Assembly (NCBI GenBank): GCA_029210625.1
Contig: JARGFU010000014.1
Coordinates: 1-36,400 of the forward strand
Origin: Deltaproteobacteria bacterium
Lineage (GTDB): Bacteria; Myxococcota; Myxococcia; SLRQ01
Length of the DNA stretch: 36,400 nt
Direction: 5' to 3'
Within the stretch, counting starts at the first letter, position 1; each line of letters opens with the position of its first letter. Below are positions 25,876 to 30,216 of this stretch, in pieces. A program made the position numbers and the translations under genes. The notes under the pieces were generated by a model. The model saw nothing but the letters and a program-made list of their open reading frames with translations, did not search any database and was not told the origin of the DNA.

Positions 25876-26538
25876 TCAGCCCTCGCCTTGGGGCTCGTCC
25901 GGGACGACCTCGTCGTCGGAGAGGATGGCCTCCTCCTCCAGCGCCGCCTTCGCCGCGGCGATGGCCTCCTCCGAGAGGGGGGCGATGGTGCCGGCGCCCG
26001 GGGCGGGATCGCCCGGGGCCTTGCGCCGGCGGTCCTCGCTCATGGCCTCCAGCTGGACCTGGGCGTGAGCGCAGGCCCTCGCCGCCAGGAAGGCGATGCC
26101 CACCGCCAGCACCAGCTTGGTGATCACCAGCAGGGGCCGGGCGGTGAAGACCTGCACGCCGTCCCCCAGGTAGGAGACGAAGCCCATCCACACCTCGTGG
26201 AAGAGGGCCGCCCCGAGAGTCAGGGGAAGGGGGCGGCTGTCGAAGATCCAGCCGGCGGCCCAGGCCAGACCGGGCAGGACGATGAGGAGGGAGATCTGCT
26301 GGTAGACCGCCAGGATCAGATCCGAGGCGACGCCCGGCTCGAAGCCGATGGGCCGGTCCGAGAGCAGGGGCACCAGCACGTGCAGGGTGATCGCCCAGCG
26401 CAGCATCGCCGAGACCACCACCACGGCGAAGCCCAGGACCAGCACCCGGTTCATCGTGGCGACGGAGGCGCGCAGGCGCCCCACGCCCTCCTTCAGGCGA
26501 CTCGCCGGCCCCGTGGACTCTGGATGCTCTGCCCTCAC
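25876..26538 (-). CDS. Multi-pass inner-membrane protein of unknown function (220 aa)
   Basis: I do not recognise this family. There is a basic N-terminus, then four hydrophobic segments at about residues 30-55, 70-97, 103-125 and 130-155, followed by a cytosolic-looking polar tail rich in Glu and Ala (about 160-220). No catalytic or metal-binding motif is evident. The GTG at 26538 overlaps the truA stop (GTGA), so it is probably translated with truA. The stop codon abuts the clpB stop with no intervening base. Confidence 0.75.
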   Translation of the reverse strand: MRAEHPESTGPASRLKEGVGRLRASVATMNRVLVLGFAVVVVSAMLRWAITLHVLVPLLSDRPIGFEPGVASDLILAVYQQISLLIVLPGLAWAAGWIFDSRPLPLTLGAALFHEVWMGFVSYLGDGVQVFTARPLLVITKLVLAVGIAFLAARACAHAQVQLEAMSEDRRRKAPGDPAPGAGTIAPLSEEAIAAAKAALEEEAILSDDEVVPDEPQGEG

Positions 26539-27299
26539 GCCTCGTCCCTCGCGGCCCCATAGTACACGGCATCGAGGCAGAGGCCCTCCGGTCCGGCGGT
26601 CCGGCCGGCGACCGTGCGGTCCCGGGCCGCCAGGATCGCGGCGACGCTGGCCGCCGGGCGCCGCCCCTCTCCCACCTCCACGAGGGTGCCGACGAGGTTG
26701 CGGACCATGTGGCGCAAGAAGCCGCTGCCCTCGGCCACGATCACGATCTCCCCGCCGGCCTCACCCTCGACCGAGAGCCGGTCGAGGCGGCGCCGGGTGG
26801 TCTTCGCCGAGCAGCCGGCGGCCTGGAAGCTCTTGAAGTCGTGCTCGCCGACCAGGAGGGCCGCGGCGGCCACCATCGCCTCGAGATCGAGGGGGTGGCG
26901 CAAGAGCCAGTGGCTCCGCCGCAGGAGGGGCCGGCGGGAGGGGCCGTTCCAGATCCGGTAGACGTAGCGCTTCCCGGTGGCGTTGCGGCGGGGATCGAAG
27001 TCGGCCGCGGCGTGCTCGGCCCGCAAGACCGCCAGGTCCTCGGGGAGCGCGGCCTGCAGACCCGGATGGAAGGCCTTCAGCGGGAGCTCCAGGGGGTCGT
27101 CGAAGGCGACCACCTGACCCCGGGCGTGCACCCCGGCGTCGGTGCGGCCGGAGGCCTCGACCACCACCCGCTCCTCCTGGCGCAGGAGGACCCGCAGGGC
27201 CTCCTCCAGCACCCCCTGCACGGTGCGCTGCCCCGGCTGGAGCTGCCAGCCGGCGAAGTCCGTTCCGTCGTACTCGACGATGAGGCGGACGCGCAGCAA
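26535..27299 (-). CDS. truA: tRNA pseudouridine synthase A (254 aa)
   Basis: TruA makes pseudouridine at positions 38-40 of the tRNA anticodon arm. Recognisable parts are the N-terminal LIVEYDGTDFAGWQLQPGQRT region, the catalytic SGRTDAGVHARGQV with the nucleophilic Asp, KRYVYRIWNGP, HDFKSFQAAGC, and GFLRHMVRNLVGTLVEVGEG. The length is normal. The start is uncertain: TTG at 27299 is the first codon in the homologous region, and no ATG is available. It lies between the fused outer-membrane protein gene (18-nt gap) and the membrane protein (4-nt overlap). Confidence 0.95.
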   Translation of the reverse strand: MLRVRLIVEYDGTDFAGWQLQPGQRTVQGVLEEALRVLLRQEERVVVEASGRTDAGVHARGQVVAFDDPLELPLKAFHPGLQAALPEDLAVLRAEHAAADFDPRRNATGKRYVYRIWNGPSRRPLLRRSHWLLRHPLDLEAMVAAAALLVGEHDFKSFQAAGCSAKTTRRRLDRLSVEGEAGGEIVIVAEGSGFLRHMVRNLVGTLVEVGEGRRPAASVAAILAARDRTVAGRTAGPEGLCLDAVYYGAARDEA

Positions 27300-27316: not shown

Positions 27317-28885
27317 CTAGAACTCGATGGCGAGCCCCAGGGACCAGGTGGTGTCCGAGAGGTCGAAGCCGGCCGAGCCGAAGCCGTCGATCTGCAGGCG
27401 CCGGTAGGCGAAGTAGAGGTAGCTGTTGTCCACGCCGGAGCTGCGCTCGAAGTCCTTGGCCAGCTGCGGGTCGAGGGCGTCGAGGAGCACCTGGAGGCCG
27501 AGCTCGTACTCGAAGCCCCAGCGCCCGCCCTGGGCCCGCTCACCGGCCGAGTCCACGGCCACCCCGCCCGTGCCGTCGAGGATCCACCACAGATCCCAGA
27601 CCAGCCCCGCCCGCAGGTAGGGCACCAGCGGCACCTGCCACTCCTGGGCGGCGTAGTCGAAGCGGTAGGAGACGGCCAGGTCGAAGGGCACCCAGTTGAA
27701 GACCGTGGTGTCCGGCGAGGGCGTGCCGTCGGGGTAGAGACCCTTGCCCACGTCCTGGCCGAAGCCGGCGCCGAGGCCGACCCCCACCTGGCCGAAGCCC
27801 TGCCAGATGGCGCGCTCCAGGCGGAGGCGGCCCAGGAGGGTCTGCTTGGTCCCGAAGACGTCGGCGTAGGGCGTGGCGGCCGTCTCGTCGTCGATCTCGG
27901 GGAAGTAGGGGCCGAGCTCCAGCTCGAAGTACCAGCCGCGGTCGTCCTCGACCCAGCCGGCGGCCCGGGCGCTGGCCGGCAGCAGGCTGGCCACCAGCGC
28001 GAGGAGGGCCAGCCCGCCCAGCAGGCGGCGCCGGCGCAGCAGACCGAGGCCCGGGAGGAGCAGGAGCAGCGCGGCGAGGCCGACCCGGGCGCCGCCGGCC
28101 GACGCGCAGCCGGCCTGCGCTCCGCCGCCGTCGCGGTAGTGCTCCCAGAAGTCGTCGCTCGCCCGCGGCGTGGCGGTGACCGAGGCCGAGCCCTCGCTCC
28201 AGTTCCCGAAGTCGTCTTTCGTTTGCACCCAGACCTCGTATTCCGTGTCGTTGGTCAGGCCCTCGACGGTGTAGTCGCTCACCGCGCTCGAGAGCTCGGA
28301 GGAGGAAGCCGACGCGTCGGCGGAGCCCACAGGCTGCCAGGAGACCCGGAAACCATCCAGGTCGCTCGGGCTCGAGCCATCGAAGCTCCAGCTCACCTTG
28401 ATGATCTGGTCTCCCCCGACCGCGCTCACCACCGGATCGGTGGGCAGCGCGGTGTCGAAGTCGATGGCCAGGGACCAGGGGTCGAAGTCGGTGAGGGCGT
28501 CGCCGGTGAGCTCGAAGCAGATGTAGCGGGTGTGATCCTCGATCGAGCCGCAGGTGCCCTCCAGGAGGTGGGTGCGGACCATCACCGTGGCGGTCTGCCG
28601 GGTGGCGACGGCCGTGCTCTCCTGGACGACGGCCAGGGCCGCGGTGGAGTTACACTCCTTGACGGTGTCGGTGTAGATGCGCACCGTCTGGCCGCTCTCG
28701 GGGGTGGCGTCCAGCTCCCAGGCCACGGTCAGGCTCTGATCGGCCTCGCACTCGGCGAGGTTGACCTGCGCGTCCGCGCCGCCGGAGACCATCAGCTGGG
28801 GTTCGACGAAGTCGGTGGCCTGGGCCAGGGCGGCGGCAGGCAGGAGCAGGGCGAGCGCGAGCAGGGCTGGGGCACGGAGGTTCAT
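27317..28885 (-). CDS. Fusion of MXAN_2561-like MYXO-CTERM protein and MXAN_2562-like outer-membrane beta-barrel (522 aa)
   Basis: Signal peptide at about 1-22. The first half contains a Cys-bearing beta domain (about 25-148), a fibronectin type III domain (about 149-240; DLDGFRVSWQP, TNDTEYEVWVQTKDDFGNWS), and then a complete MYXO-CTERM-type signal inside the protein: Gly-Cys260, a hydrophobic helix (268-283) and RRRR (284-287). Directly after it comes a second export-signal-like stretch ending ASARA (about 288-308), then a beta-barrel domain (about 310-522) beginning WYFELELGPYFPEID and ending WSLGLAIEF, whose final aromatic residue suits the Bam machinery. From memory these halves correspond to adjacent separate genes in M. 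xanthus. Here they are in one uninterrupted frame. No good internal start codon precedes the second signal. Confidence 0.8.
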   Translation of the reverse strand: MNLRAPALLALALLLPAAALAQATDFVEPQLMVSGGADAQVNLAECEADQSLTVAWELDATPESGQTVRIYTDTVKECNSTAALAVVQESTAVATRQTATVMVRTHLLEGTCGSIEDHTRYICFELTGDALTDFDPWSLAIDFDTALPTDPVVSAVGGDQIIKVSWSFDGSSPSDLDGFRVSWQPVGSADASASSSELSSAVSDYTVEGLTNDTEYEVWVQTKDDFGNWSEGSASVTATPRASDDFWEHYRDGGGAQAGCASAGGARVGLAALLLLLPGLGLLRRRRLLGGLALLALVASLLPASARAAGWVEDDRGWYFELELGPYFPEIDDETAATPYADVFGTKQTLLGRLRLERAIWQGFGQVGVGLGAGFGQDVGKGLYPDGTPSPDTTVFNWVPFDLAVSYRFDYAAQEWQVPLVPYLRAGLVWDLWWILDGTGGVAVDSAGERAQGGRWGFEYELGLQVLLDALDPQLAKDFERSSGVDNSYLYFAYRRLQIDGFGSAGFDLSDTTWSLGLAIEF

Positions 28886-29088: not shown

Positions 29089-30117
29089 TCAGACGCCGAC
29101 GAGGCCGCGCTCGATCAGCAGCTCGGCGATCTGGACGGCGTTGGTGGCCGCGCCCTTGCGGACGTTGTCGGCCACCACGAAGAGCTCGAGGCCCCGCGGG
29201 TGGGAGAGGTCCTTGCGGATCCGCCCGACGTGGGTGGCGTCGTCCCCGGCCGCGAGCAGGGGCATGGGGTAGATGCGCTGCGCCGGCTCGTCGAGGACCT
29301 CGACCCCCGGCGCCGCGCGGAGGGCCGCGCGCGCCGCTTCGGGCTCGATGGCCTCGCGGGTCTCGATGGTCACCGCCTCGGCGTGGCCGAAGAAGGTGGG
29401 CACCCGCACGCAGGTGGCGGTCACGGGCAGCTCGGGCAGGCCCATGATCTTGCGGGTCTCCTCGATCATCTTCTGCTCTTCCTTCGTGTAGCCGGAGTCG
29501 AGGAAGACATCGATGTGGGGGATGACGTTGAAGGCGATGCGGTGAGGGAAGGTCTCGGGGGTGACCTCCTGCGAGTTGAAGAGCGCCCGGGTCTGATCCG
29601 AGAGCTCCTCGATGCCCGACTGCCCGGCGCCGGAGACCGACTGGTAGGTCGCCACCCGGACCCGCTCCAGGGGAGAGAGCTGGTGGAGGGGCTGCAGCGC
29701 GACGACCATCTGGATGGTCGAGCAGTTGGGGTTGGCGATGATCCGCTTCGCCGCGAAGCCGGCGACGGCGTCGGGGTTCACCTCGGGCACCACCAGCGGC
29801 ACCTCGGGGTCCATCCGCCAGGCGCTGGAGTTGTCGATGACGATCGCGCCGGCCGCGGCGGCCTTCGGCGCCCAGATCTTGGAGGTGGCGCCGCCGGCCG
29901 AGAAGAGCGCGATGTCGACGCCCTCGAAGGAGCCCTCCTGGAGGCGCTCGACCTCGATCTCCTCACCCTTGAACTCGATCTTGGTTCCCTCGCTGCGCTC
30001 GCTGGCGAGCAGCCGCAGCGTCTTCACCGGAAGCTCGCGCTCGGCGAGGACCTCGATCATCTCCCGACCCACGGCGCCGGTGGCGCCGCAGACCGCAATG
30101 CAAAGACCTTCGGACAT
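29089..30117 (-). CDS. asd: Aspartate-semialdehyde dehydrogenase (342 aa)
   Basis: Asd reduces aspartyl phosphate to aspartate semialdehyde, the branch point to lysine/diaminopimelate, threonine and methionine. It has the NADP-binding start IAVCGATGAVGREMIEVL, LFSAGGATSK, the catalytic cysteine in NPNCSTIQMV, SVSGAGQSGIEEL, and the late substrate-binding VRVPTFFGHAEAV and GRIRKD segments. The length is typical. The ATG at 30117 follows GAGGAAGAG; an upstream in-frame ATG at 30144 would add nine unrelated residues. It lies 99 nt after the YdcH-like gene on the same strand, possibly co-transcribed. Confidence 0.97.
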   Translation of the reverse strand: MSEGLCIAVCGATGAVGREMIEVLAERELPVKTLRLLASERSEGTKIEFKGEEIEVERLQEGSFEGVDIALFSAGGATSKIWAPKAAAAGAIVIDNSSAWRMDPEVPLVVPEVNPDAVAGFAAKRIIANPNCSTIQMVVALQPLHQLSPLERVRVATYQSVSGAGQSGIEELSDQTRALFNSQEVTPETFPHRIAFNVIPHIDVFLDSGYTKEEQKMIEETRKIMGLPELPVTATCVRVPTFFGHAEAVTIETREAIEPEAARAALRAAPGVEVLDEPAQRIYPMPLLAAGDDATHVGRIRKDLSHPRGLELFVVADNVRKGAATNAVQIAELLIERGLVGV

Positions 30118-30216
30118 GGAGAGTCTCTTCCTCTCGAAACACAACTCGCGGGTCCTCTCACCCGAACGTGGGGCGAGAGCCCGCGAGTCGAACTGAAAGT
30201 GGGTCGGACGGTCGCC

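Follow-up and report, generated by a model that had tools for sequence, protein, structure and literature searches.

Internal copies of the MYXO-CTERM sorting signal occur in rare cases (PMC11980579). In MXAN_5598 of Myxococcus xanthus the signal is flanked by an adhesin region and a barrel/OmpA region, and the authors proposed that the N-terminal part is processed and that the protein possibly arose by gene fusion (PMC11980579); the protein is among the listed outer-membrane-vesicle proteins (PMC4158809). Experiments in the same species revealed Cys-dependent cleavage of the C-terminal MYXO-CTERM of TraA by the myxosortase MrtX, with the type II system serving the surface step (PMC11980579). 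TraA and TraB, i.e. a MYXO-CTERM surface protein and a partner from an overlapping ORF, have been compared in their combined architecture with MXAN_5598 (PMC11980579). A sorting signal in mid-protein is also suggested by the name of the family midcut-by-XrtH (NF033207), which belongs to an exosortase system. Bacterial polyproteins are uncommon; one of them, the FbcH cytochrome b/c1 precursor of Bradyrhizobium, is cut at an internal signal peptide.

The locus described here lies in a stretch of 36,400 nucleotides (the window) and joins homologues of MXAN_2561 and MXAN_2562 in one frame. It shares with MXAN_5598 an internal MYXO-CTERM and an adhesin-like part before an outer-membrane barrel; however, MXAN_5598 was described as one atypical protein, whereas here a different orthologous family is concerned, nine fusions are found in one genome and the distribution is phylum-wide, and a shared hairpin with a second signal peptide and an invariant alanine is recognised. 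The MXAN_2561/MXAN_2562 pair (NF045522, NF040596) comprises the same families in the same order, with split relatives at the same asd-adjacent place, and differs in being two genes in the split genomes rather than one frame. The parallel with TraA/TraB is only functional, these being separate genes with other domains, and FbcH has no sorting tag and consists of different proteins. The NF033207 model gave no match to the window protein and only 16.6 bits (cut-off 45) to a relative, L251. As MXAN_5598 is already published, the idea of an internal MYXO-CTERM is not new; a literature search on polyproteins with internal sorting signals, FbcH, midcut and CFI-box returned nothing usable. As far as the literature searched shows, what is new is the scale, the hairpin common to these proteins, the occurrence of orthologues in both fused and split form, and the exchange of tags.

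Architecture of the fused frame

The locus is laid out as follows, the two neighbours being named by recognition.

29089..30144, minus strand: upstream neighbour, aspartate-semialdehyde dehydrogenase-like (asd), with a homologue beside fused and split forms
27317..28885, minus strand: whole fused ORF, 522 aa from ATG plus stop
28823..28885, minus strand: N-terminal signal peptide, residues 1-21 (ALA/Q), from the sequence; A21 nearly invariant in aligned fused homologues
28166..28798, minus strand: two FN3-like domains, residues ~30-240, from Pfam FN3 (148-231), AlphaFold2 and a PDB fold search
28025..28114, minus strand: internal MYXO-CTERM-like signal, GC260, hydrophobic helix and RRRR 284-287; TIGR03901 18.2 bits; C260 invariant in 14 fused homologues
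27962..28036, minus strand: second signal-peptide-like segment, residues 284-308, with the Arg cluster as n-region and an AxA end at 306-308; R307 nearly invariant, A308 invariant
27320..27934, minus strand: MXAN_2562-family outer-membrane beta-barrel, residues 318-522, eight strands; NF040596 212 bits, AlphaFold2
26535..27299, minus strand: downstream neighbour, truA-like pseudouridine synthase, common to the sister genome and the fused loci of other classes

The first-pass annotation had claimed a MYXO-CTERM-like signal midway through the 522-aa frame, followed by a second export-signal-like stretch and a barrel, and these elements are all present. The protein reads GGGAQAGC260, then a hydrophobic helix, RRRR at 284-287, and another hydrophobic segment, of which SARA, up to residue 308, is the end; Gly259-Cys260 and the AxA at 306-308 stand in a single frame with no stop between them. 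The signal has the MYXO-CTERM set of features, viz. a Cys in a Gly-rich motif, a hydrophobic helix and an Arg cluster; the latter is followed by 235 residues rather than by the C-terminus, and the TIGR03901 score in the own-genome profile scan was just below the cut-off of 20. It appears to work like a MYXO-CTERM, as an internal variant. The signal-peptidase site at 308 was assigned by the AxA rule together with conservation.

The same annotation had proposed the two halves as matches to MXAN_2561 and MXAN_2562, and NCBIfam searches found homology to both families: NF040596 covers residues 318-522 well above its cut-off of 100, and NF045522 covers residues 8-287 (model positions 5-304 of 304) at 115.3 bits, which is below its equivalog cut-off of 150. 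AlphaFold2 predicts the two FN3-like domains, which resemble tandem FN3 structures in the PDB, then helices at 266-281 and 292-300 and, between 318 and 521, the eight strands of the barrel; pLDDT averages 86 but falls to about 50 or less, i.e. low confidence, across most of the hairpin.

Fused and split forms across the phylum

Homologues were sought in 147 genomes of the class and 195 of the phylum. Full-length homologues in one frame occur in 15 genomes of the class, including four families besides that of the window (both members of f1, ten genomes of f4, G032 of f6, G081 of f8 with two copies, and G145 of f10), and the rest of the class has two genes instead. Most of the split loci that were read have a 4-base overlap (ATGA or GTGA) between the stop of the upstream gene and the start of the barrel gene, and this is the arrangement in most genomes of families f2 and f3. 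Beyond the class, 14 of the 16 loci read are fused (families f11, f12, f14, f17, f18 and f19), mostly at the asd/truA place; of the other two, L252 has a separate barrel gene and L244 lies on a short contig. The asd-like gene adjoins the locus in fused and split genomes alike, and truA does so in f1 and in other classes. The comparison of relatives proposed by the first-pass annotation finds both forms at the same asd-adjacent place. A scan of named genomes with the f4 alignment found eight MAG contigs matching over both halves; the same scan with the window protein alone as query found no match. The second fused copy in G081 (C112, L055) is diverged from the first.

On ClpB trees, the fused or split state requires three changes within the class and five once the other classes are added. 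By our own count on these trees a fused and a split ancestor are equal in cost. A place to study loss or gain of the junction is a single genus in which G145 is fused and G143 and G144 are split (L060, L062, L063); the fusion in G145 is likely to be recent.

Cys260 and Ala308 are invariant in the 14 aligned fused homologues, all of which show the same order of signals. For the hairpin, dN/dS was ~0.14-0.5 in comparisons of five pairs of fused relatives from f4, similar in magnitude to that of the N-terminal domain, and on these rates the junction is under purifying selection. The conserved order and these rates exceed what chance would give. Together, the one-frame homologues, the shared locus and the hairpin dN/dS indicate that the junction is translated and selected.

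Predicted processing and its alternatives

The genome holding the window encodes a candidate enzyme for the first cut: the Mrt_core model scores 117.7 bits, and the MrtX model (NF040593) scores 186 bits against a cut-off of 180, identifying a cognate myxosortase, whose motifs EELFYR and HGFSN fit the published EExxxR and HxxxN. We consider it highly probable that the ORF is an inherited precursor polyprotein, from which MrtX and signal peptidase I would release two products, a surface lipoprotein and a barrel of the outer membrane. The first signal peptide would export the FN3-domain half, and the internal MYXO-CTERM helix would act as a stop-transfer sequence, with the Arg cluster remaining in the cytoplasm as a short loop. 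The second hydrophobic helix would then serve as an internal signal peptide, with the Arg cluster as its n-region, and export would resume with the barrel half. Signal peptidase I, whose presence is assumed, would cut after Ala308 and free the barrel for insertion into the outer membrane; MrtX would cut after Cys260, presumably lipidated, leaving the FN3 half as a surface lipoprotein that may reach the surface via a type II system, again assumed for this genome. A spent hairpin of ~48 residues would be left over, and the two products, which may act as partners, would be made one to one. In split relatives, the 4-base overlap would give similar coupling by translation.

Alternatively, translation might start internally in the fused frame and give the barrel its own signal peptide, in which case the fusion would be merely nominal. 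In a few members an ATG or GTG does lie in frame within the hairpin or close to it (ATG in L003, L189 and L190, GTG in C22); however, the position of such codons is not conserved, and no ATG, GTG or TTG lies between the Cys and the AxA in L042, L045 or the own-genome fusions on C1, C20, C27 and C56. In the window protein the single candidate in this interval is the GTG at Val298, which lies inside the second hydrophobic helix and would leave a leader of only 11 residues; moreover, the hairpin has stayed short and has retained its Arg cluster. Given the lack of a conserved start codon, the hairpins with none and the short leader from V298, we regard an internal start as unlikely.

A single, uncleaved multi-domain outer-membrane protein would be in keeping with the continuous frame, and cleavage is itself a prediction; however, two hydrophobic helices would anchor the uncut protein in the inner membrane and hinder insertion of the barrel, the orthologues function as two genes, and the AxA alanine, which an uncut protein would not need, is invariant, all of which makes this reading very improbable.

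Least credible, with a probability close to nil, is that two ordinary genes lost the stop/start junction between them, either through a mistake in sequencing or assembly or through a mutation of very recent date, as a single-base indel could bring about in the overlapping pairs of f2 and f3, since the same in-frame fusion recurs in the 15 genomes of the class and at the 14 loci of other classes and purifying selection runs across the junction. The first-pass annotation's own alternative, a recent loss of stop and start, fails on the same ground, and this assembly is not alone in being fused among relatives with two genes; on comparative evidence, then, the fusion is neither an assembly error nor a recent loss of a stop.

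Recurrence of the hairpin and exchange of the tag

The precursor polyprotein favoured above has counterparts in its own genome (G000). A TIGR03901 scan gave 61 matches, of which ~51 have the Cys motif by our own reading; low-scoring matches lacking it were set aside as chance. In eight of the ~51, the fused ORF included, the frame runs on directly into another hydrophobic stretch that has an AxA-like site, and a ninth fusion, at C4:231141, was found by homologue search. Judged by these frames, the genome has nine or more fusions of this kind, with unrelated partners. Apart from the fused ORF they are the following, with domain names confirmed by Pfam only for C27 and otherwise assigned by eye.

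C22 (L132), 3174-aa frame: Ig/NHL-like repeats (adhesin-like) and a CxxCH-rich multihaem part
C27 (L032), 1606-aa frame: CARDB/putative-Ig and a second such protein ending in its own MYXO-CTERM
C20, 1103-aa frame: matrixin-like and HEAT-like parts
C1, C16, C4, C61 and C56: propeller or FG-GAP-like part and FlgO-like domain, some with a barrel; C61 and C56 reach contig ends

With an internal hairpin and a terminal MYXO-CTERM, both halves of the C27 protein would be surface-anchored. In C22 a GTG just after the Arg cluster makes internal initiation possible. Members with the FlgO-like part are also present in G019, G081, G090, G093, G107, G111, G135 and G140. An alignment of 24 hairpins from several families, in which the Cys is invariant and an invariant Ala stands at the same position before the predicted cut, was used to build a hairpin profile. 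Long frames with full-length matches to it turned up in many genomes of the class, and a few outside it; the partial matches correspond to ordinary C-terminal MYXO-CTERMs, and the counts therefore do not amount to a census. Among the matches are an adhesin-plus-barrel fusion family (L211, L213, L216, L221, L222, L224 and L226), of which L211, L216, L222 and others resemble MXAN_5598 by description only, and an Ig-like pair fusion family (L219 and L223). That relatives throughout the phylum and no fewer than eight further genes of the genome share this build points to a recurring polyprotein design rather than a broken or misread gene pair.

Outside the class, the tag regions that were read are mostly CFI-box-CTERM, not MYXO-CTERM. 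Four fused proteins tested there (L242, L246, L255 and L256) score 70-82 bits with the CFI-box-CTERM model (cut-off 40), 198-209 bits with MXAN_2562 and 87-112 bits, below the cut-off, with MXAN_2561. Three further ones (L245, L250 and L254) show a GGFCF(I/V)ATAA motif by eye, and G158 (L251) has a Cys motif resembling MYXO-CTERM. After either tag come a basic loop and another signal-like helix. The presence of CFI-box-CTERM in orthologous fused proteins means that one type of precursor bears either of two sorting modules at one place, and suggests that the two may do the same job.

We lean slightly towards a general class of exported polyproteins in Myxococcota: the helix of a sorting tag would be merged with a signal peptide in one short cleavable hairpin, and one gene would deliver a surface lipoprotein and its partner (a barrel, a FlgO-like protein, a multihaem cytochrome or others), with the tag, MYXO-CTERM or CFI-box-CTERM, exchangeable between orthologues and the fused state perhaps the older. 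Should the predicted cuts take place, myxobacteria would have a standard route for exporting a pair of envelope proteins at a fixed ratio from a single gene, these precursors would escape any annotation in which MYXO-CTERM is taken to mark a C-terminus, and the fused pairs would reveal which barrel or periplasmic partner each surface protein works with. The action of a myxosortase on an internal signal also becomes directly testable.

About 4.5 kb from the C20 polyprotein lies a gene for a CPBP protease (C20:109531, L131) with weak similarity to the archaeomyxosortase MrtA (79.7 bits, cut-off 200).
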